From positions 1 through 48,252 of IMG/VR virus record IMGVR_UViG_3300027721_000462: DNA of 48,252 nt; one strand, given 5' to 3'. The notes beneath the pieces were generated by a model. It saw only the letters and a list, made by a program, of their open reading frames with translations. It did not search any database and was not told where the DNA came from. Source of the DNA: a virus. Positions 5,254 through 46,127 of the stretch are shown piece by piece. Every line of letters starts with the position of its first letter. The stretch's first letter is position 1. The position numbers and the translations under genes were made by a program.

Positions 5254-5613
5254 ATGAAAGCATGCACCTATTGCAAATTAGAATTACCATTAACAGAGTT
5301 CTATAATAGAACAGATACGGGTAGATTAAAATCAAGATGTAAAGCTTGCGAATGTTTATCATCAAGAGCAAGGAATTATAAAATAACATTAGATCAAGCC
5401 CAATCATTGATGGATAGTACTAATTGCCATTGTTGCAGTAAAGAAATACTTGATAAGAGATCAACATATATTGATCATTGCCATGAAACAAATAACATAA
5501 GAGGAATACTATGTATGTCTTGTAATTCTGGTATTGGATTTTTAGGTGATAATCTTGAAGGAGTATTAAAAGCAGTGAACTATTTAACTAATAATAATCA
5601 ATTAAAACTATAA
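5254..5613 (+). CDS. endonuclease VII-like nuclease with extra N-terminal zinc finger
   Basis: The C-terminal two thirds match the recombination endonuclease VII family: CHCC at 58-61, DHCH at 74-77, and RGILCMSCNSGIG with C87 and C90, giving a zinc site and a beta-beta-alpha-metal active site. T4 endonuclease VII resolves branched DNA before packaging. The N-terminal 33 residues form a separate C4 finger (C4, C7, C29, C32) that is closely similar to the one starting the HNH protein at 5951. The gene lies between exonuclease and SSB genes, so it either works with them in junction resolution or is a mobile nuclease that settled there. Confidence 0.85.
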   Translation: MKACTYCKLELPLTEFYNRTDTGRLKSRCKACECLSSRARNYKITLDQAQSLMDSTNCHCCSKEILDKRSTYIDHCHETNNIRGILCMSCNSGIGFLGDNLEGVLKAVNYLTNNNQLKL

Positions 5614-5617
5614 AAAA

Positions 5618-5932
5618 ATGGCTACAATATTGAAAGCATCCATAAATTTAAATCAAATTCCTAAGCACAAAATTATTGATGGTGCTAAAGGAAAGTACTT
5701 ACCAATTACAATTACAATTAATGACGAAGTTGATCAATTTGGAAATCAAGGTCCAATTTTAGTAGAACAATCAAAAGAAGAACGTGACGCGAAAGCAGCA
5801 AAAGTTTATCTTGGAAATGTAAAAGTAGTATGGACGAATGGAGACAACGTTGCAGTTGCTCCAAGAACTGATGGTGGACAATCACAACCTGCACAACGAG
5901 CTCCTGCTCCTGATTTCGATCTCCCTTTTTAA
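5618..5932 (+). CDS. ssb: single-stranded DNA-binding protein (phage SSB-like)
   Basis: A 104-residue protein with a beta-rich body of about 80 residues and a flexible Gln/Pro/Ala linker that ends in DFDLPF. This acidic, Pro-Phe tip is the classic C-terminal tail by which SSBs recruit partner proteins. The body is short for an OB fold but similar to small phage SSBs. It follows ERF, exonuclease and endonuclease VII-like genes, so it probably coats single strands in both recombination and replication. Assignment rests on tail plus context; the OB fold itself is not evident from motifs. Confidence 0.75.
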   Translation: MATILKASINLNQIPKHKIIDGAKGKYLPITITINDEVDQFGNQGPILVEQSKEERDAKAAKVYLGNVKVVWTNGDNVAVAPRTDGGQSQPAQRAPAPDFDLPF

Positions 5933-5950
5933 CTTTAAGTGATTACAAAC

Positions 5951-6481
5951 ATGGAAATAGAATGTATAGGGTGTAAAAATACACTAAGTTTATCTAATTT
6001 TTATAAGCATACATCCGGTGAGCACGGCGTGTTACACAGATGCAAAGTGTGTGTAAAAATACAACGATCTAAAAATTACGAAGAACGTATAGGTGATCCA
6101 CGCTTTGTAAAAGCTGAACAGCAAAGAGGTAGAGAAAAATATGCTAGATTAAACTATAAGGATGCTAATAGAAAAAAAATGCAAGATCCGGCTAGGAAAT
6201 TAAAGCATAGAATAAGAACAGCCGCATATTCTTTATTAAACAAAAGAGTAAATTCTAGTACGTTATTAGGTTGTTCTCATACTGAATTTTTTAAATATAT
6301 AGAATCAAAATTTGTTAATGGAATGAGTTGGGATAACATGAGTGAATGGCATTTGGATCATATAGTTCCTTTAAGTTGGTGTAAAACTAATGAAGAGTTA
6401 TTTATATATTCACATTATTCAAATATCCAACCTTTATTCGCAATAGACAATTTGAGAAAAAGCGATAACTATATAGGATAG
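5951..6481 (+). CDS. HNH endonuclease with N-terminal zinc finger
   Basis: A 176-residue protein. Residues 5-34 form a C4 finger (C5, C8, C31, C34) and the C-terminal part is a HNH nuclease: HLDHIVPL at 134-141, then the HYSNIQPL block with N158 and the later DNLRKSD with N167. ATG at 5951 is preferred over the in-frame GTG at 5939 because it is followed directly by the finger and lies at a normal distance from the SSB stop. The finger resembles that of the endonuclease VII-like protein at 5254. It could be a free-standing homing nuclease or a DNA-packaging or repair nuclease. A strong terminator follows, so it closes the first early operon. Confidence 0.8.
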   Translation: MEIECIGCKNTLSLSNFYKHTSGEHGVLHRCKVCVKIQRSKNYEERIGDPRFVKAEQQRGREKYARLNYKDANRKKMQDPARKLKHRIRTAAYSLLNKRVNSSTLLGCSHTEFFKYIESKFVNGMSWDNMSEWHLDHIVPLSWCKTNEELFIYSHYSNIQPLFAIDNLRKSDNYIG

Positions 6482-6499
6482 TTCTAAAATATAATTGTA

Positions 6500-6542
6500 C
6501 TTATAATGCTTGCCGTAAGATCAGCATATAAGTCTTTTTTTT
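6500..6542 (+). terminator. intrinsic terminator of first early operon
   Basis: CTTATAATGCT at 6500-6510 pairs with AGCATATAAG at 6523-6532, with one bulged A, and is followed by TCTTTTTTTT. The stem of ten pairs and the eight-T run make a convincing rho-independent terminator 19 bases after the HNH stop codon. Confidence 0.8.
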
Positions 6543-6596
6543 AAAGCAGGACGAACTCTAGACAGCGAAAGTAGGATCTAGTCTGGACAGCTTTTT
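6543..6596 (+). ncRNA. structured intergenic segment, possible small RNA or second terminator
   Basis: The 54 bases between two terminators are richer in G and C than the surroundings. AAAGC 6543-6547 can pair with GCTTT 6590-6594, enclosing CTAGA 6558-6562 with TCTAG 6577-6581 and a loop rich in purines (CAGCGAAAGTAGG). The closing GCTTTTT could itself act as a terminator. No reading frame of note is present. It may be a small RNA, a processing site or just a third terminator hairpin. Confidence 0.25.
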
Positions 6597-6606
6597 GTAG
6601 TTAGTT

Positions 6607-6629
6607 AAACCCCATTAATTGGGGTTTTT
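6607..6629 (+). terminator. intrinsic terminator hairpin
   Basis: AAACCCCA at 6607-6614 pairs with TGGGGTTT at 6620-6627 around a five-base loop and is followed by more T. It lies between the structured segment and promoter-like copy 3, and insulates the replication operon from upstream transcription. The symmetry means it could also stop minus-strand transcripts. Confidence 0.8.
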
Positions 6630-6659
6630 CTATCTAGAATAAGTAGTTCTTACAATCTA

Positions 6660-6684
6660 AACACGATTGTAATTTGATAATATA
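6660..6684 (+). promoter_or_regulatory. promoter-like motif, copy 3
   Basis: AACACGAT 6660-6667, an eight-base spacer and GATAATATA 6676-6684 lie 23 bases before the ATG of the primase-helicase gene and just after two terminators. This is the place where a promoter is expected, since a strong terminator separates this operon from the preceding one. It is therefore the best supported of the copies. Confidence 0.6.
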
Positions 6685-6707
6685 TATGTAACAATTAAAT
6701 TAAATAA

Positions 6708-8411
6708 ATGCAAACAACAGAGATAAATGGTTTTTTGATTGACCAATTCAATCAACATAAGCTTGAAGAAGGAAAGTCTCAAGGCATTTGTCCAATATGC
6801 TCGCCAGACAGAAAACCTAAGAATGAGAAAGCAAAGTGTGCTTCTTATGACTGGGAACGTGGTATAGGAACTTGTCACAACTGTAGTAAGACTTTTCAAT
6901 TACATACCTATCAACGTAAAGGAGCAAGCGAAAAAGTTTATGTTAGACCAACATCGCTTTTACTTCCGGCTACTTCAAAAGTTGTTGAATGGTTTAATAG
7001 TAGAGGAATATCAGAGCAAACATTAACAGAGTTACAAGTTACAGAGGGGCCTGAATTTATGCCTCAAACTGGTAAGACTGAAAATGCTATACATTTCAAT
7101 TATTTCATTGGCGATCAACTTATCAATGTAAAATACAGAGATGGACACAAGCATTTTAAATTATTCAAGGGAGCTGAAAAAGTATTCTATAATATTAACA
7201 GCATTGTAGGATTTGAATATTGTGTAATTGTTGAAGGCGAAATGGACGTGTTAGCATTACATGAAGCAGGAATCACTAATGCAATATCTGTTCCAAACGG
7301 CGCAACATTAGGCACAAACAATCTTGAGTACTTAGATAATTGTATTGATTATTTTGAAGACAAAACAAAGATTATTATTGCAGTTGATTCAGACGCGGCT
7401 GGTCAAGCTTTGCAGACTGAATTAGTAAGAAGACTAGGATCAGAAACTTGTTATATTGCAACGTTTGATGATTGTAAAGATGCAAACGAATACTTAATTA
7501 AATACGGCAAAGAAGCATTATCACAAAGAATATCAAGATCAAAGCCTGTACCGCTTGAAAACGTTACCACATTCAGAGACATTGAAGATGAAGTCACGGA
7601 CTTTGTGCGAAATGGTTTTAAACCAGGTTTCCAAGTTGGGTTGGATAATTTTGATAGTATTTTTTCAACTTATACTGGCCAGTTTATTACTGTTACTGGT
7701 ATACCCAGCAGTGGTAAATCTGATTTTGTAGATCAAATGGTTGTTGGTTATAATGAGAAGTATGGTTGGAAAACTGCTTATGCTTCTCCAGAGAATCATC
7801 CAACATATTTGCATGCTCATAAGTTAATGCGTAAAACATGGCAAGGCATGCCGGGAGTTGAAGATATTAAAACTGAAAAGTGGAATCAAGTAGCGGATCA
7901 TGTTAATGATAATTATTTCTTTATTGACATGGAACGTTATACATTAGAATCTGTATTACGTAAAGGAGCTGAGCTAGTTAAACGTAAAGGAATTAAATGC
8001 TTAGTCATTGATCCATTTAACAAAGTAAGATCTGCAGATGCCTCTGGCGATGTCAATGTTTATACATTAGAGTACTTAAGCCAGATAGAAATCTTTGCTA
8101 AGAAGTATGACGTACTAGTTATGATTGTAGCTCACCCTACTAAAATGTACAAAGATTCAAAAGGTAATATTGAAGAGCCTACAATGTACAATATTAAAGG
8201 CGGCGGCGAATGGTACGATGCATCTTATCATGGTTTATTAGTTCACAGAAACTATGAAGACAAAACTGTTAAAGTAAAGATTCTTAAATGTAAGTTTCAA
8301 AACCTAGGTGAGAATGGTGCTGAATGTCATTTTAAATGGGAACCAGCTTCAGGTTGCTTCTTGCCTCATGTTCCAGCTGTAAGTGCAGATTCTAAATTAC
8401 CATGGGAATAA
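6708..8411 (+). CDS. bifunctional DNA primase-helicase (T7 gp4-like)
   Basis: A 567-residue protein, nearly the length of T7 gp4. Domain order: N-terminal zinc-binding domain with C28, C31, C56 and C59; a TOPRIM primase domain with E176 in VEGEMD and D227 in VDSDAAG; a linker; and a DnaB-type helicase with Walker A GIPSSGKS (331-338). The later LVIDPFN is a probable Walker B and IVAHPTKM a probable motif H3. It should make RNA primers and unwind the fork as a hexameric ring on the lagging strand. It leads the second early operon behind promoter-like copy 3. No DNA polymerase lies near it in the window, which is unusual for this kind of replisome. Confidence 0.93.
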   Translation: MQTTEINGFLIDQFNQHKLEEGKSQGICPICSPDRKPKNEKAKCASYDWERGIGTCHNCSKTFQLHTYQRKGASEKVYVRPTSLLLPATSKVVEWFNSRGISEQTLTELQVTEGPEFMPQTGKTENAIHFNYFIGDQLINVKYRDGHKHFKLFKGAEKVFYNINSIVGFEYCVIVEGEMDVLALHEAGITNAISVPNGATLGTNNLEYLDNCIDYFEDKTKIIIAVDSDAAGQALQTELVRRLGSETCYIATFDDCKDANEYLIKYGKEALSQRISRSKPVPLENVTTFRDIEDEVTDFVRNGFKPGFQVGLDNFDSIFSTYTGQFITVTGIPSSGKSDFVDQMVVGYNEKYGWKTAYASPENHPTYLHAHKLMRKTWQGMPGVEDIKTEKWNQVADHVNDNYFFIDMERYTLESVLRKGAELVKRKGIKCLVIDPFNKVRSADASGDVNVYTLEYLSQIEIFAKKYDVLVMIVAHPTKMYKDSKGNIEEPTMYNIKGGGEWYDASYHGLLVHRNYEDKTVKVKILKCKFQNLGENGAECHFKWEPASGCFLPHVPAVSADSKLPWE

Positions 8412-8998: not shown

Positions 8999-9772
8999 AT
9001 GCAAAAGAAAAATTATGAAGAACAATACAGACAAATCCTATTGGATTGTTTGGGCAGCCATACTGTTAGAGATGATAGAACTGGCGTCGGATCTCGCTCT
9101 ATTTTTAATGCCTTACTAAGTATAAATGTTTCAAAGTATTTTCCTATTATAACTGGCAGAAAAATGTCACAAAAGATATTTGATACGGAGTTTGAATGGT
9201 TTATGACTGGACAAACAAATATTAAAATGTTTAAAGATGCTGGTGTAAAAATATGGGATGCTTGGGCAGATGAGAATGGAGATCTTGGCCCCGTTTATGG
9301 GCATCAAATGCGCAATTTTAACGATCAAAATATAGATCAGATGCAAATGCTTATTAAAAATTTAATTGACGATCCAGACAGTCGTAGACACATCATAAGT
9401 TTATGGAATCCTGCTCAATTAGATCAAATGCGATTGCCTCCATGTTATTTATATTTCCAATTCTTTGTGAATAACGGCAAACTTAATATGTTTGTTGTAC
9501 AAAGATCGGGGGATTTATTTTTAGGCATACCTTATGATATTGCTTTGTTTACTAAGATACTTTTGTATGTTTCTGAAAAAGTAAACTTAAAAGCTAATTT
9601 ATTGGAAGTTCAGATTGTAGATGCACATATTTATGACAATCAACATGATGCTATACGCAAATATTTTGAACAAGAAACTTTTGACCTTCCAGAGTACATT
9701 TACGAAAACGGAGCATTAACACTGCTTAATTATAAACACGGCCCTATTATTTCAGCAAAAGTGGCTATTTAA
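8999..9772 (+). CDS. thymidylate-synthase-family enzyme, probable dCMP (hydroxy)methylase
   Basis: A 257-residue ThyA-fold protein with nearly all active-site residues: R27 in DRTGVG, E64, W86 in IWDAWADENGD, R129-R130 in DSRR, the catalytic C149 in PPC, R169-S170 and D172 in QRSGD, H210 and Y212 in DAHIY, and the VAI C-terminus. The residue equal to E. coli N177 (GLPFNIA) is D180 here (GIPYDIA). In this family Asn selects dUMP, while Asp is found in T4 dCMP hydroxymethylase, and the Asn-to-Asp change in Lactobacillus casei enzyme favours dCMP. So this enzyme more likely makes 5-methyl- or 5-hydroxymethyl-dCMP than dTMP. It uses methylene-tetrahydrofolate and sits beside two MazG-like genes and a ribonucleotide reductase. 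Confidence 0.88.
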   Translation: MQKKNYEEQYRQILLDCLGSHTVRDDRTGVGSRSIFNALLSINVSKYFPIITGRKMSQKIFDTEFEWFMTGQTNIKMFKDAGVKIWDAWADENGDLGPVYGHQMRNFNDQNIDQMQMLIKNLIDDPDSRRHIISLWNPAQLDQMRLPPCYLYFQFFVNNGKLNMFVVQRSGDLFLGIPYDIALFTKILLYVSEKVNLKANLLEVQIVDAHIYDNQHDAIRKYFEQETFDLPEYIYENGALTLLNYKHGPIISAKVAI

Positions 9773-9780
9773 TCTAATAT

Positions 9781-10659
9781 ATGTATTTTCTCTATCACAT
9801 TTTTGGTAAAAAGATCGGCGTTACACGTAATCTTAATAAAAGGGTTACGCGTGAGCAAGGCTATAAAGAACATGAATATGAAGTTTTAGAGACTAGTGAT
9901 GATATAAATTATATATCAGATCGAGAACTAGAACTTCAATCTATCTACGGTTATAAAATAGATAGGCAATCTTATAAGAATTTAACTCAAAAACAATTAA
10001 ATAAAATGGTATTAAACGTAACAGAACAAACAACAACTTTTCCATGTCCAGTTAATAAACTTAAGGGCAATCTAATGGACAACAAAGGAATTAAAATAGA
10101 AACTGGTTTTGGCAAATATGTTTTAACAGATGATTTGGCAGAATGGATAACTAAAAATGCTAGTACTTCTATGTTTAACCCGGCTAGATCTTACGTATAT
10201 AATAAAGCATTAGATGAATTTGCACAATCATTAGGCAAAAAATCAATGGCTATAGAGCATAAGCCTCAACCCGAAAAAGATAATAGTTATTTTGATCCTG
10301 GCAATGTTTATGATCTTATTAGATTGTGGGCTGAAACTAGAGGTATATATAAAAATGGCGATACTAAAACGCAATATATAAAACTATTAGAAGAATCTGG
10401 CGAACTAGCAAGAGCAATCTTAAAAAATGACAAACCAGAATTCATTGATGCTATTGGCGATATGGTTGTTGTATTAACTAATCTAGCTGCGTTAGAAGGA
10501 TTAAAAATTGAAGACTGTGTTACATCAGCTTATTCAGTAATTTCAAGCCGTAAGGGCAAAATGGTTAACGGTACATTTGTAAAAGAAAATTCTCCAACAA
10601 TTACGCCAACAAATTATAATACAAATCCATCCGAATATAAATTAATGAAAACACTATAA
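9781..10659 (+). CDS. MazG-like NTP pyrophosphohydrolase fused to GIY-YIG-like domain
   Basis: A 292-residue fusion. Residues 1-65 look like a divergent GIY-YIG domain: FLYHIFGKKIGVTRNLNKRV followed by a possible acidic residue in DRELELQ. Residues about 100-155 are an unknown linker domain. Residues about 172-265 match MazG: E204-E205-x-x-E208, then E220-x-x-D223 and D227, the metal-binding pattern EExxE...ExxD. The MazG part should cut a nucleoside triphosphate to monophosphate and pyrophosphate; T4 dCTPase belongs to the same all-alpha group as far as I recall. Next to a putative dCMP-modifying enzyme, the likely substrate is dCTP or dUTP. Whether the nuclease-like domain is active is uncertain because key residues are hard to place. 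Confidence 0.75.
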   Translation: MYFLYHIFGKKIGVTRNLNKRVTREQGYKEHEYEVLETSDDINYISDRELELQSIYGYKIDRQSYKNLTQKQLNKMVLNVTEQTTTFPCPVNKLKGNLMDNKGIKIETGFGKYVLTDDLAEWITKNASTSMFNPARSYVYNKALDEFAQSLGKKSMAIEHKPQPEKDNSYFDPGNVYDLIRLWAETRGIYKNGDTKTQYIKLLEESGELARAILKNDKPEFIDAIGDMVVVLTNLAALEGLKIEDCVTSAYSVISSRKGKMVNGTFVKENSPTITPTNYNTNPSEYKLMKTL

Positions 10660-10660
10660 T

Positions 10661-11137
10661 ATGAAACAAGAAATTGAATTTAGAGATCCTGTTGTACAAT
10701 CTGTAGTAAACAAATTTGTAGATAGATCTGATGTTGGATTTAAAAAGTATGGTAAAACATTACGTGATGATCCATCTGATGTGTTTGTATGGCTAAACCA
10801 TTTACAAGAAGAGTTAATGGATGCTACATTGTATCTTCAACGTTTAAAAGAAGAAATATCTACGTTACGTGAAGAAAAAGCATTGCTAAAAGAATTAAAT
10901 GACATTGATGTTATAGACGCTTTTGAACTTCTTAGTGATAAAAAAAAACAATGGAAAGATTCAAAGAAGCTCAAGAAGCCTGGAACTGGCCGGGGTGATC
11001 ATTATTCATTTACTATAGATGAACCCGATCATAAAGATTGGAAAGACGTATTAGATGAAAGTCCGTTATTAAATTTTGCAGAATTCTTTCGGCCATATTG
11101 CGCAACAACAACTATGCCAGATGCGCAAAATAAGTAG
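10661..11137 (+). CDS. MazG-like helical protein (158 aa)
   Basis: The N-terminal 65 residues read like a phage all-alpha NTP pyrophosphohydrolase relative: VGFKKYGKTL followed by WLNHLQEELMDATLYLQRL, in which the acidic residues E51, E52 and D55 are placed as a metal site. A coiled coil and a Lys-rich linker follow, and the C-terminal 50 residues (from about GDHYSFTIDEPDHKDWKD) are of unknown kind. It lies one base after the MazG fusion gene, so it probably works on the same nucleotides. The second half of the MazG metal site is not obvious, so it may be a structural or inactive partner. Confidence 0.55.
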   Translation: MKQEIEFRDPVVQSVVNKFVDRSDVGFKKYGKTLRDDPSDVFVWLNHLQEELMDATLYLQRLKEEISTLREEKALLKELNDIDVIDAFELLSDKKKQWKDSKKLKKPGTGRGDHYSFTIDEPDHKDWKDVLDESPLLNFAEFFRPYCATTTMPDAQNK

Positions 11138-11750: not shown

Positions 11751-11933
11751 ATGGAAGAATTAGTAAATCAACTTACCATAGAAAAAGCGATGAACGGTTA
11801 TCAAGTACGTTTAAAAGATCATACACCACCAGGGACCGCGAGACCGGTTCCTTATGTGTTTGAAACAATGGATAACCTATTAGAATTTATAAAAACCAAA
11901 TTAAAAGAACCAAATGAGTTTAACTTTAGATAA
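11751..11933 (+). CDS. hypothetical protein (60 aa)
   Basis: A 60-residue protein with a beta-like N-terminus (LTIEKAMNGYQVRLKDHTP) and a short C-terminal helix that ends in KLKEPNEFNFR. It starts one base after the previous stop and overlaps the ribonucleotide reductase gene by 20 bases, which suggests translational coupling to it. No family is recognised. Confidence 0.5.
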   Translation: MEELVNQLTIEKAMNGYQVRLKDHTPPGTARPVPYVFETMDNLLEFIKTKLKEPNEFNFR

Positions 11934-13782
11934 ACAAATCTTATCCGATATAACCGTATATACAAAATATGCGAAGTATATACCAAGTAAAGAAAGAAGA
12001 GAAACCTGGAATGAATTAGTAACACGTAATATGGAAATGCACGTGGCTAAATTTCCAACAATGAAAGAATCAATAGAATCCATTTATGAAAATTTTGTAT
12101 TCACTAAAAAGGTTTTACCTTCAATGCGAAGCTTACAGTTTGGTGGTAAAGCTATTGAGCTTAATAATGCTCGCATTTATAACTGTGCTTTCCTACCTAT
12201 TGATAGTATTCATAGTTTTTCTGAGACTATGTTTCTATTGCTTGGAGGTACTGGCGTTGGTTATTCGGTCCAACAACATCAAATTGAGAAGTTGCCTGAA
12301 ATTAGAAAACCTAATTATGATCGCAAGAAAAAGTATGTAGTTCAAGATTCTATTATTGGTTGGGCAGATGCAATTAAAACTTTGTTTAAATCTTATACAG
12401 GAGCAATGACTTCTCATATCGAGTTTGATCTTTCTGATATAAGACAGAAGGGAGCATTGCTTGTAACGGCCGGCGGTAAAGCTCCAGGACCAGAACCATT
12501 AAGAATTGCATTAGTAAAGATTGAAGCTATCTTAAGAACGAAAGAAGATAGATCTAAACTTACAGATATTGAGTGCCATGATATTCAGTGTCATATTGCC
12601 GATGCTGTTTTAGCTGGTGGTATTCGTAGAGCAGCGATGATCTCGTTGTTTGACTTAGATAGTAATGCAATGTTAAATTGTAAAGCTGGTAATTGGTGGG
12701 AAGACAATCCACAAAGAGGTAGATCAAATAATTCAGTAGTACTTTTAAGACATAAAATTGATAAGAAAACATTTGACAAAGTTTGGGAAAGGATTGAAGC
12801 TTCTGGATCGGGCGAGCCAGGCATTTACCTTACTAATGATAAAGATTGGGGTACTAATCCTTGCTGTGAGATTGCTTTACGTCCTTATCAGTTCTGTAAC
12901 TTAACGGAAATTAATATGTCTAATATTGAAAACCAAGAAGATTTTAATGCAAGATCATCAGCAGCATCATTCTTAGGCACATTACAGGCATCGTATTCAG
13001 ACTTCCATTACTTACGTGATATATGGAGAAAACACACAGAAAAAGACGCATTACTTGGTGTATCAATGACGGGTATTGCATCAGAATCAAACTTAAAATT
13101 AAATTATGAAGAAGCAGCACAAACTGTTAAGGAAACAAATAATATTATTGCAGCGGCTCTTAATATCAACAAAGCAGCCAGAACCACCGCAGTTAAGCCG
13201 GCAGGAACTACTAGCCTTGTCCTTGGCACTTCTAGCGGTATTCATGCTTGGCACAATGACTATTATATTCGCCGCATGCGCTTAGGTAAGAATGAAGCAA
13301 TCTATTCTTATCTTGCAATAAATCATCCAGAATTGCTTGAAGATGAATATTTTAATCCAACATTGCAATCAGTCATATCTGTTCCACAGAAGGCTCCTAA
13401 TGGCGCCATAACGCGATATGAATCTACATTAGATTTGTTAGAACGTGTTAAATTAATTTCTAAGGATTGGGTTAAACAAGGGCATACTAAAGGTAACAAT
13501 ACCCACAATGTTTCTTGTACGGTTTCAGTGAGAGACGATGAATGGAAAATCATTGGTGAGTGGATGTGGGCAAATAAAGATTACTATAATGGATTGTCCG
13601 TATTGCCATATCACGGTGGAACATATAAGCAAACGCCATTTGAAGATTGCACTAAAGAAGTATACGAAGAAATGATGTTAAAACTTAAAGATATTGATTT
13701 GTCTAAAGTTATAGAGATCCAAGATAATACTAATTTTAGCGAGTCAGTTGCGTGCGGGCCATCTGGTTGTGAAATAACTTAA
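11914..13782 (+). CDS. nrdJ: class II (B12-dependent) ribonucleoside-triphosphate reductase
   Basis: A 622-residue protein matching the monomeric adenosylcobalamin-dependent reductases of the Lactobacillus leichmannii type. The redox and radical residues keep the known spacing: C91 in IYNC, the radical C317 and E319 in NPCCEI, C328 in FCNL, and the C-terminal shuttle pair C614 and C619 in ACGPSGC. KPAGTTSL is also present. The C317-E319-C328 spacing equals C408-E410-C419 of the Lactobacillus enzyme. It makes dNTPs directly from NTPs and needs B12 from the host. It is about 115 residues shorter than the 739-residue reference, with much of the loss between C91 and C317, so allosteric parts may be reduced. 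Confidence 0.92.
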   Translation: MSLTLDKQILSDITVYTKYAKYIPSKERRETWNELVTRNMEMHVAKFPTMKESIESIYENFVFTKKVLPSMRSLQFGGKAIELNNARIYNCAFLPIDSIHSFSETMFLLLGGTGVGYSVQQHQIEKLPEIRKPNYDRKKKYVVQDSIIGWADAIKTLFKSYTGAMTSHIEFDLSDIRQKGALLVTAGGKAPGPEPLRIALVKIEAILRTKEDRSKLTDIECHDIQCHIADAVLAGGIRRAAMISLFDLDSNAMLNCKAGNWWEDNPQRGRSNNSVVLLRHKIDKKTFDKVWERIEASGSGEPGIYLTNDKDWGTNPCCEIALRPYQFCNLTEINMSNIENQEDFNARSSAASFLGTLQASYSDFHYLRDIWRKHTEKDALLGVSMTGIASESNLKLNYEEAAQTVKETNNIIAAALNINKAARTTAVKPAGTTSLVLGTSSGIHAWHNDYYIRRMRLGKNEAIYSYLAINHPELLEDEYFNPTLQSVISVPQKAPNGAITRYESTLDLLERVKLISKDWVKQGHTKGNNTHNVSCTVSVRDDEWKIIGEWMWANKDYYNGLSVLPYHGGTYKQTPFEDCTKEVYEEMMLKLKDIDLSKVIEIQDNTNFSESVACGPSGCEIT

Positions 13783-14086: not shown

Positions 14087-17000
14087 TTAACCCATTTTTC
14101 TTTTTCTTTTTTTAATCTTTTCTTCTCTACGCTTTAAAGCAGCTTCTCTTTTTATTCTAACACGTTCCCTAATTGGTAAAGCTCTAATAGAATCTTTTGT
14201 ACGTTGTCTTGTTTCGGCAGATTTTATTTTGCCTTCTTCTTTACGTATTTCTTTTGCTTTTGCTCTAATCTCTATATCACCTTTTGATTCTTCTATACCA
14301 ACCGAGTAAGGGGTAAATCCAACTCCAACTGCTACTCTTTGCCACGCTTGATTCTCAGAGTTCATTGCTTGTGAAACATTTTCAATTTTATTTACAAGCC
14401 TATCCATTGGTAAGTTAGTTGTTGCTTCAACAAGTTTTCCACTTACACCATACATGGGCCCTAGATTAACTCTGCCGTTTTGCATAACACTCCAGCCTCT
14501 TGCTTCTATTAAATCTTTTTCAAATTTAGTTTGTTGAAGTCCTGTATATAGCTTTCTAAGTTTAGATCCAATTGGTGGAGATATATTAGCGCCTTCTAAT
14601 ACTACTTTAGCATAGTCTGCTTTAAAGTTTTTATCTTTTTCATCTAAATACTTTTTAGTCATGTTTTTTAACACTGAAACAATTCCACCAGCAAACCCTG
14701 TTCCTCTAAGTACTGTATCCAATACACCGTCGGCAACATCTATTAATCTATCTTCTGTTGTTTTCTTTTTTGCTTTAGCTTTATCTTTATCAACTTCTTC
14801 ATCGTCTTCATCAAACGCTATAGCAAATAATCCTTGTTGTAACACAGCAAATAAAGTATTCTGTACCGCTAGATAATATGTTATTTTAGCAATATGTGTT
14901 TTTGCATCCCCTCTTCCAGCTTTAAGATCCATATAAGATTTCTTAACAATTCTAGACTGTTGCATTGCGGTGTTTTGGAATGTTAATAACAATCTACCAG
15001 CAGGACTCGCTTGTTGTTTTGATATATCTCTAGGATCACCTGATTGTTGTGTTTCATCAGATACTTTTGTAAAGTCACTCCAAGCCGCGTCTTCTGCTTC
15101 TTGCTCTGTTAAACCTTCTTTCAAATAAGATTTTACTCTATTTCTATAGAACGGCGCACCTCCAGAAGCAATAGCAAAACTATCTGCTAATTGTGTTGGT
15201 GTGTACCCAATTTTTAATAAGTAAGCTATAACAGCGGCTGGTTTATTTTTACTGCCTGCGGCAGCATTTGCGATCTCAGCAGCGGCAACATCTTCTTTTA
15301 ATCCGCCGCGTCTTTCTTTCATTTTATCTGAATTCCAAATACGTGAGAAATCTTTCCAATATTGTGGTTGATTAAGGAATGCTTTACCAGCTGCAACAGG
15401 ATTGTTATCTCTTAAGTTTAAGAAATTGACTGCTCCAATTAATTGTAAGGCAGCGGATCTGGTGTTCAAAAACATGATAGCTCCAGTAGAACCATTCACC
15501 CAATTACTCCAAGCGCTTGTTTCTTTATCCTTACCTTGACCTCTGTTTTTACCAGTTGTCATTCTGTACAATACGTCTTCGATAGCTTCTCTAACATTCG
15601 AACCATATACAGCTTCTACTTTGTTAATGTTAGGGCCAACCAATTTACCTTGAGACCATGTTCCAAACATTTGTTCAGCATTGTCAATAAACTCAGCAAG
15701 AAATTTCTTACGCCCTTCACCTTCTGTTAAACCATGTAGATCCGCAATAATAGTATTTGCGTCCCAGTATTCAGTAGGATTAATCCATCCTTTACCTTGT
15801 CTGCCAGTAACTATTAAGCCTTGTTTGAACGCAGCTAGCTCAGGATCATTGTTTACCAAATCTGTTAATTTTCTTGAATCCCTTTCGGATATACCAGGTA
15901 TTTCAACGCCTTCTTCGTTCCACATTGCAACACGTATTGCTTGATCATAAGTATAATCTCCATCTGGAGTTAATGTTTCCATTTTCTTACGTATATCTGG
16001 GAATGAATCTAACAATGCTTTATAGTCTTTCTTAATAGATTGCCTTGCAGCGTCCATCAAATCATTACCATTTGCATATGGTTTAAGTAAAGCTTCGTTA
16101 AAGAACCTTTGTTGTTCTTCTCCTCTTTCGCCTTTACCTAAGAAGTTATACAATAATAATTCAAAATCAGCGGCGGATGGTGGAACATAAAAATCAAACT
16201 TGTTTTTAGACTTACCTCTTCTTCTAGCGACAATATCTGAGAACACTTTGTAATGTTCCATACCTTTATTCTCTTCAATAATCTTATTGAATTCTGGAGA
16301 TATAGTTTTACTAAATTTAATTCTTGCTTGTTGTATTTTAGATTTTACATCAAGAACAGCTAAAGCATTTTTAACAGCTTCAACATTTTGTATTGCATCG
16401 TCAGAAAAGTAAAAATCATTATATCCTTCTGCTGCTTTTGCTGTCATCCAATCCGCTTTTGATTGCGCTAAGCTGCTTCCTAGACCAGTTATATTTTCTA
16501 ATGGTATATCAATACCAATAGAAGATAAAAACTCATGAATTGGACCCGCAGCATTAGCAGGACGAGCCGTAAGTATAAAGAAGTTTTCAGGACCAAACTT
16601 GCCAATCATCTTCTTCATCTTTTCAACCATTGGACCTGGTTTACCATCAACAACTTTACTGAATTCAGAGAAATCAAATACTGCTCCGGCATCTAGCATA
16701 TTACCGCCTTCTTTAGCAAACTCTTCTGCATTCAATTTACCTTTAGCGCCATTAGGCATTGTGTATAGCACGCTCCCTGAAGTTAAACCAACGGTGTCAT
16801 CAAAATCAAAAACTGAAATGCCTTTAGTGGTTTTAGAAGGCTTTAATGATGCACCTACAGCTTTTTCATTATTTATATTTTGAATATTTTCATTAGAAAT
16901 AACATTTGATTTAGCTAATTTTACTAGAGCATTAAACTTGGTTTTTGAGCCATATTCCGCCTCTAAATTTAATATTGTATGCCCTTTATCTATTAATACT

Positions 17001-20000
17001 TGCATATATAACACTACTCTTGGATCGTGCATTCTATTTTCACCCTCTTTGTACGCCGGTAAAAAATCATTTAATTCTTTTGGCACTAAATTTACCTTTG
17101 AATTTTCAATAAATTTTCTTAATTGCTTTTCGGTAATTTTTTTATTAAAATAGTCGATCACCTTCTCCATTATATCGTAATTTGGAGCGTTATGTTCTAA
17201 GTATGGCTTTTGGCTTGCCTTCATGCCTAAAACCCCTAAGCCTGCTTTTGAGACTTTACGAGCTAGTCCTCTTTGATCATATTTCAATACAGCAAAATAC
17301 GAACGTAAATCTTCTTCTGTTTTTTTTCTTTTTCTAAATGAATCCGCAATACCAATAAGTCTATTTGCGGCTTCAATAGCTTCAGAATTTATGGTTTCAA
17401 TTTCTCTCTGCCAATTCTTTTTTATTACTTCTGTATCTTTCCATAATGGAACTTTATCTTCGCCTAAATATATAGAGTAACCTCTAGGCCCAATTTTTAC
17501 AGTATAAGAATCTTTAGTTAAAAAACCGCCAAATTTAGAATTAACTTCTATTATTGGTAAAATAATTTTTTGAAACAAACCTAAATTAGTGGTTAATGGA
17601 TCGTTTTTACCAAATATAGTATAGGCTAATGTCCTTATTGATCTTCCGTCACTTGCAATCCAATCATTAATAATTTTTATTTCTGATTCTAAATCTACAG
17701 CATTAAATAAATCTTCACCTAATTTATCTTCAGATAATCTTATACCATCTATTATAGTTTTAGAAGCTTTAATATTACCTCTTTCCGATTGTTTAGCTAT
17801 TTCAGTAGCCATATTACCTAAATCCGCAGCGCCTAACCTTTCTTGATTAGTTCGTACAGTGTCATGAATAGGCCCTTCATTTTGCAAATCATTATTGATA
17901 ATATCAAACGCTCCTTCTTCAGCCATTGCTTTTGATAAAGATTCTTTTCTACCACGAATAGGATTACCATCAGGACCAATTATTTGAGCTAAAAATACTT
18001 CGTCTGATATATTATTAGCGACATTAGGTAATCTTCTAACTAATTCAGCCCCTGAAGTTCTACCCGCTTGGTCAGTAGTTGTTTTTTCTCTATCAATTTT
18101 TTGTCCAACCCAATCCGGAAAGCTAACCCACCTACCATTAATTTGCTTTTGAATAGCCATAGGAATTCCCCCTTGCCCATCTTTACCCATTAACCAAGTA
18201 GTGGTCATATTCTCAAGGACATACCGTTTGGTTCTTAGTAATTCTTTTACTAATACGCCATCTTTTTTACCTCCTAGCATTGTTTTTACATCAATGTCAA
18301 GTTGTTTACCCACCTCATCCCTTATTTCAGCAATTAAAGGCGTAACAGTTCTGTTTAATGTAATTGGCGCATCTATCCTAGTCTTTAATGTTCTAGCAAT
18401 AGTTATAATCTTTTTTACGGCAGTTTCTAGCACTTCTGATGGAAAAACTTTTGCTTCCAATGCATTCTTATACTTTGGCTTTTCTTTAACCGTTTCAGCA
18501 AATCCCTGATCAGCCGTTTCATCTGCCATTAAACCTTTTTCTTCAGCAGCGTCTTTCTTAATGCCTCCTTTAGTAGCTCCTTCAATCCCCAGTTCATATG
18601 CTAAAGCATTAGCCCTAAGGTTTAAACGAGAACTAATAAATCTATCTAATGTTTGTTTAGATGGATCAAATTCATTATTAATTAACAATGCAGCACTTTG
18701 AATTAAGGCGTCTTTATATTCATCCCTAGCTACGCTACGTTTAGCATCGGCAGCAATAGGATCGTATAGTCTTCTTGTTATAGTTTCAACAGTACCTCCT
18801 AATTCTTTACCTATTACAGATTTTGAAAAGTCATTGGTGACGCCTCCAGACGGAGTCTTTCTTAATCCTTCAGAAGCTAATTTTTTAGGATTTCCTTCAT
18901 ACTTAGTATCTAATAAATTTTGTAAATTACCTTTACTTTTAAGTTCTTTGTCTGTAACTTCTTTTTTTGCAGGTTCTTTTTTAACTACCTCAGTCGTACC
19001 TACCGCTTCTTTTGCAATCGCTCTTTTTAGTTCTCCTTCTACTCTTTTAACCTCTTGATCATATTCATTTGGATCATAATCGCCTTCGTTTTCTTCAAGA
19101 TCATTAAACTCTGTTTTAAGTTGAGCAATTGTTTTAGATGTTTTATATTTGCTTGTAATACCTTTACCAGCTGCTAATAACTCTTTTTGTCTTTTTGTTA
19201 CTATTCCTTTTTTAGAAGTTTTATGATAATCTTTTATAAAATTGTAAATATCATTTCCGCTTTCAAAATCAAGTTTCTCAAACCCTAAAGCTTTATATAT
19301 TGGGCGAAGAACCCTTTTCCACATGCTATTAAATGTTCCATCAGAAAATGTTATTTCACCCATTTCTAATGCTTCAAAAAATTGCGTTAAATATTCGTCA
19401 GGACTATCCTTAAGGTACTCCTCTGAATAACCTCTATCTGTAAGTCTTTGTTCTACAACTTTATTTTCTTTAGAGCTTAATGTACTTTTAAATTTTTTTA
19501 ATAAATCCTGCCCATTTGCTGGGTCATTGAATTGCGACTTTAATATTTTATGCAATAATTCGTGTCTTCCTGCGGAAGCCCCTTCATCAACATTTTTAGC
19601 CACCGCTTTATTTATTATAATTTGGCCATTTGGTAATTCAGCAGCTACATCACCTGCAAAATTTATTTTTTTTCTTTCCCCATTAATGTCTAATAGCACA
19701 TTGCCTTCTTTATCCTTCTCATATAAGTTAGATTCCAAGCCATTATCTATATACCATTTTTCTATTTGAGATTGCATATCGCTTGTGCTTTCTATAACAT
19801 GGTATTGTCGGCCCTCCCCTATAGCATTTTCACCATAATTTTTTTCTTCAGCATTTCTAGTTAAAGTTTCTAATGTTTCAAGTTCTTTGTTTAAACGATT
19901 AGAATAATATTGCTCCCTTGATGTTCTAATTAATTGACCTTGTATTGCTTTTATCCTTTCAAGTTCTGGAGCAACTAAATCTTTATCCTTACCTTCTATA

Positions 20001-22408
20001 TTTTTTTCAATGTTTGCTTTTTCTAATATTAAATTCAAAGACTTTTCTTTTGCCGCAGCTGAAAAATCAGATGGTATTTTAGCCCCTGAACTTCTTATTG
20101 TTCCAAGTGTTTCTAATTCTGTTTGTTTTTGATCTTGTGTAATATCGCCAACTTTAAATCTTTCGTCTATGTTCTTTATTGCAGCTTTAAAAAAGTTATC
20201 CACTTGCGCTAGATTTCCCATGTTTTTATTAGACAAATCAAATGTAGTCGCAACTGTAGTAGCCGCAGCCCTTAATTCAACTCCTGTTTGAGTAGCAATA
20301 GTTCCTGCAAACGGAAATACAAAACCTACAATTCCGCCGGCTTTACCAGCTTCATTTATTTCAGCGGGGTTTATATATTTAGCAGCATCGTTGTGTAACT
20401 GAGTCCCTTTACTCGCTTGATCAAATCCTTGCTGAACACTTTCAGTTAAGTATTCTCCAAAAGCAGACTTGGACATATTAGTTCCTTTCTGAATAACTGA
20501 TTTACCAAAGTTTTTAACTTCACCACGGAATAAAGACCCTAGTACCGTTTTAGCATCATTGCCAAACCCAAGGGCTCTTCCTGTATTCTTAAGCATATTT
20601 AATTCAGATGCATATTCTAATCCAGCAGACAATGCAGACCATGCTGCGGCTTCTGCTCTATTAGCATATTCACCTTTACCAATAGCTTCTGCAATTTCTT
20701 TTTTAGTTGGCTCTCTACCGATGTCTTTTTTTAAACCTGTTTCTATTGTATCATAGTATTGGGAACCGTATGTTTGAGTAAACATACTAGCCGCACTCAA
20801 ACCAATAAGTAATGGGTTACCTGTTATAGACCCAGCAGCAGTTAATGCAAGGTTAGGGGTTTGCTCTCCTACTAGTTGAAAAACGTCGTTTAATTGTACC
20901 CCGTCTTTTAGATCAGCTTCGTTAAATAATCCTAAATATTCTTTTGTATCAGCTATCTTATTTACTTTAGCTTCTATTTCAGTATTTATTTTATTAACAC
21001 CTTCTTTTATTCTTTTCTTTGCTTCACCAAACGTTTTTGGTACATCTGTTCCAAATAATGATTCTGTTTGTCCAATGCCTTCAGCGCCGGCCATAACGTC
21101 ATTCCAAGTTTCTGGCAAATTAAATTTTTCATTATCGGGTTTATCCTTATATTTATTATAAAAGTCATTAAGAGTATTTACTTCTCCATGCTTTGTTGAT
21201 ATTCCGGTTTGTAAGGCTGACACTCCTAAATTTATAACTCCTTTTTGAGCCCCTTCTTGCAACCTACTTACCCCTTGAATAGTTTTACCAACGACTCCAG
21301 TCACTCCACCTTGTTTTTCTAAAACTTTACCAAATTTTTCTTGTATATCAAAAATAGCTAAAGAACCTTCTTTGCCTCTTTCATATTCTTTCGTTAATGT
21401 GGTTTTTACTTGGTCTTCAATAGAAGCAAATGTTTGGTTTAAATGTTGAAATCCAGAAGAATTAACTAAGAAATCTGTTGTAGTTTTAGCAGCATAATCT
21501 TGTAATTCTTTTGTAGCTTTATTTACAGACTCAGCGGTATCTAACTTATATTTCTTTTTTATTTCAGCAATTTTACTATTTATTAAAGGAGCAGCCTTTG
21601 CTTTAGCATATTTTTGTTCAAACTCAAAAGAACTATCCTCGGACGCTAATTTTTTAACATTCAGGGAAATAGCATTGTCAAGTTGAGCTTTTGTTTTAAA
21701 TTTACTAGGATCAATATCCTGCATTACATAATCCATTGCTTCTTGTTTAGTGGCAATATCATATTGATTAGTAATTTGATTGTATTTTTTTTCTGTATAA
21801 CTAGTTTTAGGAACCAATTTAGACACAAATAGTGCTCTATCCTCAGCTGAATAGTCTTTAAGAAATTCAAACTTACCAGTAGCCTCTAAGGCATCTTTAG
21901 AGTCTAATTTAAAAGATTTTTGTTGTTCTTTTATTGGTGTTTGATCATAATAAGATAACTTACCATCAGTATCGGGGGTTTTATCAGCGAATAAATTTTT
22001 AGCAAAATCAACAGTATCATCCCACAAAGAAGGCTCTTTAGTTGTTTTAGGAACTAAATATCCTCTTGAATCATATTTATATCCAGGTCTAGTAATAGGC
22101 GCTACCTTTGCTTGAGCAGCATCTTGTAATTTTGCAACAAATTCTGGTTGCGATTTATCTTCACCCCAAAGATTAGTTCGAGACGCCGATGAAGGTTTTA
22201 CCGATTTGGATGCCGTACTTTTTACTGCTGCAGGCGCACCCTTTTTTGCAACAGGTTTTGGCTTTCCCGGCTCCTCAGCAATTTTATCTTCTTCTTTATT
22301 TATACCAAATTTATTAATATAAGCCTCCAGATCAAGTCCTTTTGCTTCTGCTTTACTAATTACTTCTTCTTCAGTAAATGTTGCTCCATTATAAGTATAT
22401 ATAGGCAT
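14087..22408 (-). CDS. giant multi-domain internal virion / ejected protein (2773 aa)
   Basis: The 2773-residue frame is the last late gene. Its small start domain (MPIYTYNGATFTEEEV) is followed by long helical, charged regions. HELLH at 949-953 in GRHELLH, with an acidic PDEY motif about 60 residues later, is a zincin-type metallopeptidase site. A HAD-like phosphatase set follows: D1868 and D1870 in DFDDT, T1947 in LTARP, and D2003-D2004 in SDDA, with QSKADW between. Around 1230-1270 a segment with EFDPSKQTLDRFISSRL resembles sigma region 2. The C-terminal third holds the QQSGDPRDIS, GRLLLTFQNT and MQQSR segments that I associate with large phage polyvalent proteins, and ends in a very basic tail. 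It is probably packed in the capsid and injected with DNA. Domain activities are inferred from motifs only. Confidence 0.8.
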   Translation of the reverse strand: MPIYTYNGATFTEEEVISKAEAKGLDLEAYINKFGINKEEDKIAEEPGKPKPVAKKGAPAAVKSTASKSVKPSSASRTNLWGEDKSQPEFVAKLQDAAQAKVAPITRPGYKYDSRGYLVPKTTKEPSLWDDTVDFAKNLFADKTPDTDGKLSYYDQTPIKEQQKSFKLDSKDALEATGKFEFLKDYSAEDRALFVSKLVPKTSYTEKKYNQITNQYDIATKQEAMDYVMQDIDPSKFKTKAQLDNAISLNVKKLASEDSSFEFEQKYAKAKAAPLINSKIAEIKKKYKLDTAESVNKATKELQDYAAKTTTDFLVNSSGFQHLNQTFASIEDQVKTTLTKEYERGKEGSLAIFDIQEKFGKVLEKQGGVTGVVGKTIQGVSRLQEGAQKGVINLGVSALQTGISTKHGEVNTLNDFYNKYKDKPDNEKFNLPETWNDVMAGAEGIGQTESLFGTDVPKTFGEAKKRIKEGVNKINTEIEAKVNKIADTKEYLGLFNEADLKDGVQLNDVFQLVGEQTPNLALTAAGSITGNPLLIGLSAASMFTQTYGSQYYDTIETGLKKDIGREPTKKEIAEAIGKGEYANRAEAAAWSALSAGLEYASELNMLKNTGRALGFGNDAKTVLGSLFRGEVKNFGKSVIQKGTNMSKSAFGEYLTESVQQGFDQASKGTQLHNDAAKYINPAEINEAGKAGGIVGFVFPFAGTIATQTGVELRAAATTVATTFDLSNKNMGNLAQVDNFFKAAIKNIDERFKVGDITQDQKQTELETLGTIRSSGAKIPSDFSAAAKEKSLNLILEKANIEKNIEGKDKDLVAPELERIKAIQGQLIRTSREQYYSNRLNKELETLETLTRNAEEKNYGENAIGEGRQYHVIESTSDMQSQIEKWYIDNGLESNLYEKDKEGNVLLDINGERKKINFAGDVAAELPNGQIIINKAVAKNVDEGASAGRHELLHKILKSQFNDPANGQDLLKKFKSTLSSKENKVVEQRLTDRGYSEEYLKDSPDEYLTQFFEALEMGEITFSDGTFNSMWKRVLRPIYKALGFEKLDFESGNDIYNFIKDYHKTSKKGIVTKRQKELLAAGKGITSKYKTSKTIAQLKTEFNDLEENEGDYDPNEYDQEVKRVEGELKRAIAKEAVGTTEVVKKEPAKKEVTDKELKSKGNLQNLLDTKYEGNPKKLASEGLRKTPSGGVTNDFSKSVIGKELGGTVETITRRLYDPIAADAKRSVARDEYKDALIQSAALLINNEFDPSKQTLDRFISSRLNLRANALAYELGIEGATKGGIKKDAAEEKGLMADETADQGFAETVKEKPKYKNALEAKVFPSEVLETAVKKIITIARTLKTRIDAPITLNRTVTPLIAEIRDEVGKQLDIDVKTMLGGKKDGVLVKELLRTKRYVLENMTTTWLMGKDGQGGIPMAIQKQINGRWVSFPDWVGQKIDREKTTTDQAGRTSGAELVRRLPNVANNISDEVFLAQIIGPDGNPIRGRKESLSKAMAEEGAFDIINNDLQNEGPIHDTVRTNQERLGAADLGNMATEIAKQSERGNIKASKTIIDGIRLSEDKLGEDLFNAVDLESEIKIINDWIASDGRSIRTLAYTIFGKNDPLTTNLGLFQKIILPIIEVNSKFGGFLTKDSYTVKIGPRGYSIYLGEDKVPLWKDTEVIKKNWQREIETINSEAIEAANRLIGIADSFRKRKKTEEDLRSYFAVLKYDQRGLARKVSKAGLGVLGMKASQKPYLEHNAPNYDIMEKVIDYFNKKITEKQLRKFIENSKVNLVPKELNDFLPAYKEGENRMHDPRVVLYMQVLIDKGHTILNLEAEYGSKTKFNALVKLAKSNVISNENIQNINNEKAVGASLKPSKTTKGISVFDFDDTVGLTSGSVLYTMPNGAKGKLNAEEFAKEGGNMLDAGAVFDFSEFSKVVDGKPGPMVEKMKKMIGKFGPENFFILTARPANAAGPIHEFLSSIGIDIPLENITGLGSSLAQSKADWMTAKAAEGYNDFYFSDDAIQNVEAVKNALAVLDVKSKIQQARIKFSKTISPEFNKIIEENKGMEHYKVFSDIVARRRGKSKNKFDFYVPPSAADFELLLYNFLGKGERGEEQQRFFNEALLKPYANGNDLMDAARQSIKKDYKALLDSFPDIRKKMETLTPDGDYTYDQAIRVAMWNEEGVEIPGISERDSRKLTDLVNNDPELAAFKQGLIVTGRQGKGWINPTEYWDANTIIADLHGLTEGEGRKKFLAEFIDNAEQMFGTWSQGKLVGPNINKVEAVYGSNVREAIEDVLYRMTTGKNRGQGKDKETSAWSNWVNGSTGAIMFLNTRSAALQLIGAVNFLNLRDNNPVAAGKAFLNQPQYWKDFSRIWNSDKMKERRGGLKEDVAAAEIANAAAGSKNKPAAVIAYLLKIGYTPTQLADSFAIASGGAPFYRNRVKSYLKEGLTEQEAEDAAWSDFTKVSDETQQSGDPRDISKQQASPAGRLLLTFQNTAMQQSRIVKKSYMDLKAGRGDAKTHIAKITYYLAVQNTLFAVLQQGLFAIAFDEDDEEVDKDKAKAKKKTTEDRLIDVADGVLDTVLRGTGFAGGIVSVLKNMTKKYLDEKDKNFKADYAKVVLEGANISPPIGSKLRKLYTGLQQTKFEKDLIEARGWSVMQNGRVNLGPMYGVSGKLVEATTNLPMDRLVNKIENVSQAMNSENQAWQRVAVGVGFTPYSVGIEESKGDIEIRAKAKEIRKEEGKIKSAETRQRTKDSIRALPIRERVRIKREAALKRREEKIKKRKRKMG

Positions 22409-42142: not shown

Positions 42143-42417
42143 TATCTAGATCTCCCTTCTGCAAATCCTTTGAATACTTTAGTATTAGGATCCTTTTCGC
42201 TCTCTTCTAACATTCTCTCCTCTTCTTCTATTCTATTAAGAATTTCAAAAGCATCAAAGATTGCTAGCTTTTTAGTTGCAGCGGCATTCTTTAATTTGTC
42301 TGCGCTCAAATCATCTTCTCCGTTATTTAATATTGCTTCTTCCGCGACTTTAATTAACTCAAGAACTGCTTTATGTCCCGCGGCCACAATACTCCTCTTC
42401 GTCTCCTTTATATCCAT
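42142..42417 (-). CDS. probable terminase small subunit (91 aa)
   Basis: A 91-residue, all-helical, charged protein directly before the large terminase and sharing one base with it. It begins MDIKETKRSIVAAGHKAVLE and ends in a coiled coil with many Glu. ATG at 42417 is preferred over 42435 because the longer form adds only hydrophobic residues with no support and more overlap. Small helical proteins here usually bind the packaging site. No helix-turn-helix is clear, so the assignment rests on place and shape. It overlaps the tandem GroES-like gene by 47 bases. Confidence 0.55.
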   Translation of the reverse strand: MDIKETKRSIVAAGHKAVLELIKVAEEAILNNGEDDLSADKLKNAAATKKLAIFDAFEILNRIEEEERMLEESEKDPNTKVFKGFAEGRSR

Positions 42418-42967
42418 ACTTAATAACAATATCATTAGATTTCATACAATATAATCTCTGGTTGTCTATAATGAATTCGTATTCTCCGAAAGGAGTATAA
42501 CCCACTAAGTCCCCAGGATTGATTTTTAACTCTTTTAAAGAGTCATTACCATATTTTAATATACCAATAAGTTTACGCTCTTTATCAAGCTTTAAATGGT
42601 CTATATTTTTTAATGGTTTAACAAAACATCTATCTCCAAATGATCTCCAATGTGTATCTGTTTTATATAAGTAGATTTGATCCGCGCTACAAAAGTACAA
42701 ATCCTCTTTGAAGTATGCTCTACTATTTTTTTGTTTACCTTTTATATCATAAAATCTTCTAAAAACATTATGATGTATAATTACGGTATCACCTACTTTT
42801 ATATCTGTTTTATATGCTAATGGAATTGAAATCACTTCAGCTATATTGTTAACAGATTTGAAAGTTTCTATCTTAGTATTAAGAATTAATTCTTTACCTT
42901 CAACCTCAATACTATTTTCATATCTAGACCCCACAGGTTTAACTATGAAATCGAAGACACCTCTCAC
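42371..42967 (-). CDS. tandem GroES-like protein (two co-chaperonin-like domains)
   Basis: A 198-residue protein composed of two GroES-like beta barrels. Domain 1 (about 5-102) has IAEVISIP, then IKVGDTVIIHH and a closing SADQIYLYK, with a probable mobile loop that contains the hydrophobic LIL at 27-29 (EGKELILNT). Domain 2 (about 112-185) has CFVKPL, then IGILKYG, INPGDLVGYTPFGEYE and a close match to the GroES end in the IDNQRLYCMKSNDIVI segment. It lacks an obvious mobile loop. The protein could cap a chaperonin ring like T4 gp31 or use the fold in another way. It stands beside the terminase genes, while a normal GroES is encoded at 45867. Confidence 0.65.
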   Translation of the reverse strand: MRGVFDFIVKPVGSRYENSIEVEGKELILNTKIETFKSVNNIAEVISIPLAYKTDIKVGDTVIIHHNVFRRFYDIKGKQKNSRAYFKEDLYFCSADQIYLYKTDTHWRSFGDRCFVKPLKNIDHLKLDKERKLIGILKYGNDSLKELKINPGDLVGYTPFGEYEFIIDNQRLYCMKSNDIVIKYGYKGDEEEYCGRGT

Positions 42968-45427: not shown

Positions 45428-45870
45428 CTTGTTTTATCTTTATTAACGTGATTAATTGCAACTTGTAATACTTTATCGGTATATGTTTTACCTCGCATTA
45501 TAGTGTTTCTATGATTACTTGTTGGCACATCTTCATCACCAAGCATTATACGATACATTCTACTTATTAGTTGTTTACACTTAAATGAAACTTTATATAT
45601 GTTATACTTTTGGGTTGTATGGTTTCTATTCCGCCATACTACTATCCACCCTTCTTTTAACAAATTGTTCCAGCGTTTATTGTCCCAACTATATGCATAT
45701 GTACCAATCTTATAATCTTGCTTTGTGAAAAACTCCATGCAATCAAAGTATATTAATAACTCCAGATCTGCATCGGTTAAACCATTGTTTCTACAAGCCC
45801 ATCTACGTATTAAACGATAATGTTTTAATAGCCCAAGATTTTTTACATCCCTTGCCTCTAGCTTTCTCAT
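45424..45870 (-). CDS. winged-helix-like DNA-binding protein (148 aa)
   Basis: A 148-residue basic protein. The centre has LTDADLELLIYFDCMEFFTK followed by a turn and YAYSWDNKRWNNLLKEGWIV, then strands (KYNIYKVSFKCKQLISRMYR). This fits a MarR-like winged helix, with a helix pair before a recognition helix and a beta hairpin. It is coupled to groES at 45867-45870 and to the next gene at 45424-45427. It may regulate late genes or take part in DNA packaging, as small terminase proteins do. The family is an inference from the pattern. Confidence 0.55.
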   Translation of the reverse strand: MRKLEARDVKNLGLLKHYRLIRRWACRNNGLTDADLELLIYFDCMEFFTKQDYKIGTYAYSWDNKRWNNLLKEGWIVVWRNRNHTTQKYNIYKVSFKCKQLISRMYRIMLGDEDVPTSNHRNTIMRGKTYTDKVLQVAINHVNKDKTR

Positions 45871-46127
45871 AAAACAATTACAACATCTTGCAATTTTATA
45901 ACCTTGTAATCATTACCTTCAAAATCTATTCCATGACCTGCGCTTTTATCATAATAAATAATATCGCCAACATTTAATGATTTTATCTCTTCGCTTATAG
46001 AAACTATAATAGCTTCTTTATATCTTATATTCTCTTTATCTTTTTCTGCTAAAATTAGACCGCCCTCTGTTTTACTAAGACCTGTTTTCTTCACAGATAT
46101 TATAATGTTGCTACCTATTGCTTTCAT
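45867..46127 (-). CDS. groES: phage co-chaperonin GroES
   Basis: An 86-residue GroES. Landmarks: the start AIGSNIIISVKK, a mobile loop with GGLIL (equal to GGIVL in E. coli GroES), the LNVGDIIYYDKSAG strand-turn and the final DVVIVL. It should cap the GroEL ring encoded just before it (ATGA overlap 46124-46127). It is about ten residues shorter than host GroES, the loss being in the roof region. In bacteria groES comes before groEL, but here groEL is first. Confidence 0.88.
   Translation of the reverse strand: MKAIGSNIIISVKKTGLSKTEGGLILAEKDKENIRYKEAIIVSISEEIKSLNVGDIIYYDKSAGHGIDFEGNDYKVIKLQDVVIVL

Follow-up and report, generated by a model that had tools for sequence, protein, structure and literature searches.

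Does the thymidylate synthase (TS)-like gene at 8999..9772 of this virus encode an ordinary dTMP-forming enzyme, as the database label thymidylate synthase given to such genes implies, or an enzyme acting on dCMP? The gene lies on the + strand of IMGVR_UViG_3300027721_000462, analysed over its 48,252 bases (the window), which belong to a podovirus-type virus with a G+C content of 33 %. The terminase and portal match those of Flavobacterium phage elemo, Cellulophaga phages (e.g. phi38:1), Maribacter phage Panino and the uncultured MW202828, and the host is a Bacteroidota-type bacterium. Besides the TS-like gene and one for a MazG protein, the early strand carries genes for a sigma factor, a primase-helicase, an Erf annealing protein, nucleases (an exonuclease and endonuclease VII-type proteins), a resolvase and a ribonucleotide reductase. 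The reductase (11914..13782, + strand; phrog_367 5.8e-127; PF02867, PF21995) has a class II insertion domain and is the likely dNTP supply, and it is missing from some viruses carrying related TS-like genes. Elsewhere in the window there are a phage GroEL with a GroES gene (45867-47668), a second GroES-like gene near the terminase (42371-42967) and, on the minus strand inside the structural region, a gene for a protein of 2,773 residues (14087-22408).

The protein of 257 amino acids matched thymidylate synthase families only (Pfam PF00303 6.9e-70, phrog_160) and was 38 % identical to E. coli TS in an end-to-end alignment. Its AlphaFold model (pLDDT 94.8) had E. coli TS as the closest solved folds, with TM 0.93 over 263 columns, compared to TM 0.66 with a phage gp42. 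The original prediction of a TS-like protein was thus borne out in translation and full-length fold. It had further claimed that D180 (codon 9536..9538, + strand) takes the place of the Asn which holds the uracil ring, and in alignments with E. coli TS D180 corresponded exactly to N177, where Asp indicates cytosine and Asn uracil (PMC8670742, PMC5175136, PMC6400193). The claim that all other core residues are kept was correct for R27, C149, R169, D172, H210 and Y212 (E. coli R21, C146, R166, D169, H207 and Y209), but it did not hold at three positions: E. coli K48 is Arg, H51 is Ser and H147, beside the catalytic Cys, is Tyr (Y150, codon 9446..9448, + strand). This last change had been overlooked. 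In the MetaGPA study, positions 177 and 147 were the two highest-ranking ones for phage contigs with modified cytosine (PMC8670742). Residue mapping also showed that the catalytic Cys, the phosphate-binding Arg, Trp80 and the C-terminal tail of TS are kept: L146 corresponds to E. coli L143, W86 and W89 to W80 and W83, V99 and Y100 to V93 and Y94, and the C-terminal isoleucine to I264. E. coli numbering is used below for positions 143, 147 and 177.

Asp177 was invariant in all 63 viral homologs forming the clade of the window protein, which are 35-100 % identical to it, and it is therefore not a chance or sequencing difference; the Asn of E. coli was found in none of them. Tyr147 accompanied Asp177 throughout (63/63), and position 143 was Leu in 62 and Ile in one. 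The pair Asn177/His147 was present in 80 of 80 cellular homologs, which are the nearest cellular relatives of the clade and not a census of all life, and in 41 others (40 viral sequences and the E. coli reference). When cellular sequences were scanned with only the window protein as query, no match was obtained, and the alignment-based scan gave Asn/His enzymes only. Among 50,697 phage records, no cultured relative carrying the gene was found above about 41 % identity. When columns 147 and 177 were removed, the 25 sampled Asp/Tyr proteins still formed one group (94/86), which, together with an Asp/His protein (L085), stood apart from the cellular and viral Asn/His enzymes; another Asp/His protein (L118) was placed inside the ordinary TS enzymes. 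The branches to T4 gp42, SPO1 gp29 and AXL1, the last a relative of Xanthomonas phage Xp12, were deep and long, and their placement in the TS tree is unsure. Two of the checks proposed originally thus gave the expected result: compared with ThyA, T4 gp42 and the phage enzyme AXL1_63, the window clade has Asp at E. coli position 177, and it lies outside ordinary TS even without the two columns, no cellular TS in the sample having Asp.

The next gene (9781..10659, + strand) encodes a protein whose C-terminal domain is a MazG pyrophosphohydrolase (PF03819/PF01503, phrog_1992/715), predicted to convert dCTP to dCMP. The domain covers residues ~176-270, scores over the PF03819 cut-off and has the metal-binding motif EExxE...ExxD as EESGE...EFIDAIGD. 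In the window it is fused to an N-terminal domain, and some relatives are without this part; in L085 (1639-2406) the N-terminal part matches T5orf172 (GIY-YIG-like). A MazG gene followed the TS gene in 59 of 59 clade loci, some of which are near-duplicates, and the most seen between the two was an HNH-like gene (L003, L021 and L026). The catalytic domain was readable in 58 of the 59, the exception being L055. Even in three divergent loci with few other shared neighbours (L056, L058 and L059) the partner was present, as a bare MazG domain of 100 residues. As a control, 136 genes adjoining other TS genes, nearly all with Asn177, were analysed: MazG was absent from their 25 commonest families, DHFR occurred nine times and PRA-PH twice, once beside the Asp177 gene of L118. 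In elemo and MW202828, relatives without the TS gene, this MazG is absent as well, and MW202828 has ThyX. The Asp/His gene of L085 adjoins MazG. MazG enzymes accept broad substrates. A cyanophage MazG prefers dGTP and dCTP (PMC6850273), and by analogy a dCTPase role for the MazG of the clade is plausible. The small protein encoded next (10661..11137, + strand; phrog_11184 and other uncharacterised families) often accompanies the TS-MazG pair, and it was considered as part of a methylation module but dropped because TS-less relatives carry it as well.

The D177/Y147 pair, the separate clade and the linked MazG pyrophosphohydrolase together give good support to the earlier view that an annotation as plain ThyA is wrong, and dCMP is very likely the substrate of the window enzyme. 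A dTMP synthase, methylating dUMP and merely tolerating Asp, would have the same ordinary TS fold and the same catalytic residues, all those checked being kept except 147 and 177. This reading is, however, quite improbable, as Asp was found in none of the cellular TS sampled, the clade is separate, its Asp always occurs with a changed position 147, and the neighbour is MazG and not DHFR.

If the base is cytosine, the product may be 5-methyl-dCMP or 5-hydroxymethyl-dCMP, between which the original prediction did not choose; it drew a parallel with T4 dCMP hydroxymethylase. The parallel holds for the Asp, since D180 matches the base-recognising D179 of T4 gp42, but finds no support beyond it. 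The mark of hydroxymethylation described for T4 gp42 is an acidic residue at -3 relative to the catalytic Cys, with Ser or Thr as residue 94; the single change D145N abolishes activity, and the C-terminal tail is missing (PMC6400193). The window protein has Leu146 at -3 (L146-P-P-C149, 9434..9445, + strand), Val99 at T4 position 94 and the TS-type tail AKVAI (9755..9769, + strand; APVAI in E. coli TS), which speaks against membership of the hydroxymethylases. SPO1 gp29, a dUMP hydroxymethylase (L039:4101-5252), likewise has Asp at -3 of its catalytic Cys, and the acid shared by gp42 and gp29 in the alignment suggests that it marks a hydroxymethyl product whichever the base. Leu at -3 does not mark all dCMP methylases, as AXL1_63, the enzyme of the Xp12 group, combines Asp177 with Asn at -3. 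It is unlikely that the window enzyme is a gp42-like dCMP hydroxymethylase giving phage DNA with 5-hydroxymethylcytosine or a derivative: Asp177 is common to both and MazG could stand in for the dCTPase gp56 of T4, but the residue at the position where D145N alone inactivates gp42 is Leu, Val replaces Ser, Trp83 and the tail are kept, identity to gp42 is 23.7 % compared to 38 % with E. coli TS, and a carbamoyltransferase was found in none of 27 clade records. The Leu, the Val, the full tail and a model matching E. coli TS better than gp42 favour methylation, with 5-methyl-dCMP as the predicted product. Of the two modified bases first proposed, the methyl form is thus the predicted one, the hydroxymethyl signature being absent; with Asp177 and a TS fold in which the reduction apparatus is retained, the protein has the sequence and fold features expected of a dCMP methylase of the Xp12 or N177D-like type.

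Other genes of nucleotide metabolism were sought in the window and 26 relatives. These 27 records, which may be incomplete, each contained a single TS, and no DHFR, ThyX or second TS, no thymidylate kinase or dedicated dNMP kinase and no dCMP deaminase was found in them. DNA polymerases of family A or B were likewise not found in any of the 27, although a primase-helicase is present, and the phages may use the host polymerase. The host would thus have to provide for replication, folate recycling and the phosphorylation of 5-methyl-dCMP. The base composition and CpG content of the window, compared to relatives, gave no signal either way.

Asp177 enzymes also occur in other gene settings. In the Votkovvirus AP013540.1 (L037:7164-9185) an Asp177/Tyr147 enzyme is clustered with a pyrophosphohydrolase, a thymidylate-kinase-like protein and a dCMP deaminase. 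The first two belong to the same families as the genes flanking the Asp177/His147 TS of L118 (IMGVR_UViG_3300035698_004379, 5482-7298), namely a PRA-PH pyrophosphohydrolase and a thymidylate-kinase-like gene; Asp177 of L118 probably arose as an independent change to dCMP use. The AXL1 enzyme lies beside a pyrophosphohydrolase, a deaminase and DHFR. Two D177/Y147 genes (L112 and L121) are exceptions with no recognised pyrophosphohydrolase adjoining, the DUF6378 gene beside them not being counted as one. The cultured Microbacterium phage Huwbert (L122:5135-6780) has adjacent TS homologs, gp67 with Asp177 and the ordinary gp68, accompanied by dUTPase, kinase and dCMP deaminase genes.

The Votkov cluster, with a deaminase and a thymidylate-kinase-like gene beside the D177 enzyme, raises the alternative that 5-methyl-dCMP is made and then deaminated to dTMP, providing a phage of 33 % G+C with another thymidylate route and leaving its DNA unmodified. 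For the window this is very unlikely; a deaminase was found neither in it nor in the 26 relatives, so that a host deaminase would be needed, and dTMP could be had more simply from an ordinary TS using dUMP. More broadly, it is possible, and proposed here only tentatively, that a large group of aquatic Bacteroidota-type podoviruses and Votkov-type relatives evolved TS-derived dCMP methylases separately from Xp12, mostly paired with NTP pyrophosphohydrolases, and that in Votkov-like phages 5-methyl-dCMP may be deaminated to dTMP in a cytosine-first thymidylate route.

On balance, the gene probably encodes a dCMP 5-methylase on a TS scaffold, fed by MazG and giving 5-methylcytosine phage DNA. From the residues, the clade and the gene linkage seen in the sequences, a route can be predicted that includes the substrate, the product, the specificity of MazG and the modified cytosine of the virion. 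The adjacent MazG would convert dCTP, from the phage ribonucleotide reductase or from host DNA breakdown, to dCMP, feeding the methylase and lowering the pool of unmodified dCTP. D180, with Y150, would select cytosine and protonate N3, C149 would attack C6, and methylene-tetrahydrofolate would supply the one-carbon unit. As the hydride-transfer apparatus of TS is intact, 5-methyl-dCMP and dihydrofolate would be the products. Host enzymes would phosphorylate 5-methyl-dCMP, and the replicating polymerase would insert the 5-methyl nucleotide into phage DNA, where 5-methylcytosine, as in phage Xp12, would protect against restriction by the host. Incorporation into DNA would be the most economical purpose of the enzyme, and the dCMP-methylase-type residues combined with a constant nucleotide-cleaving gene neighbour make it probable that the widespread, uncultured viruses of the clade put 5-methylcytosine in their own DNA.

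If this is true, an entire set of aquatic, uncultured phages would have 5-methylcytosine DNA, with consequences for restriction and for sequencing and bisulfite data. A simple and testable reannotation rule for viral TS genes would follow: position 177 for the base, position -3 of the Cys for methyl or hydroxymethyl, and the neighbouring pyrophosphohydrolase. Natural 5-methyl-dCMP synthases have been little studied, and the enzymes of this clade, being TS-like and small, are likely to be easily expressed.

Compared to E. coli ThyA (PF00303), the window enzyme shares the fold, the catalytic Cys, Glu, Arg and Asp, Trp80/Trp83, Leu143 and the C-terminal tail, and differs in Asp for Asn177, Tyr for His147, its separate clade and an adjoining MazG instead of DHFR. 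With T4 gp42 it has in common the Asp at the base-recognising position, whereas Asp at -3, Ser94 and Val85 of gp42 are absent from it and the tail that gp42 lacks is present. The dCMP methylase of Xp12, a phage whose DNA cytosine is all 5-methylcytosine (PMC9206674), was compared through AXL1_63. Asp177, an adjoining pyrophosphohydrolase gene and the predicted product 5-methyl-dCMP are shared, but identity is only 25.9 %; AXL1_63 differs at -3 (Asn) and at 147 (Pro), carries a long insert and ends in a different C-terminus, and its gene, unlike those of the window clade, is accompanied by genes for dCMP deaminase and DHFR. Asp177 on a methylating TS frame is also found in the engineered N229D/N177D enzymes (Liu and Santi 1992; Hardy and Nalivaika 1992), Asn-to-Asp mutants which, as far as cited in PMC8670742, produce 5-methyl-dCMP; the window enzyme is natural, has Tyr147 and belongs to a viral clade in which the change is fixed. 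The MetaGPA cytosine-modified contigs contain TS homologs likewise altered at 177 and 147, but that study followed a pairing with carbamoyltransferase (PMC8670742), which was not found in the window clade. The use of Asp177 for calling cytosine-modifying TS homologs of phages is thus already published, and the present finding adds a variant and not a new principle: a clade of TS-like proteins, separate from ordinary TS, that are predicted to methylate dCMP and are constantly partnered by MazG, apparently a lineage distinct from that of Xp12.
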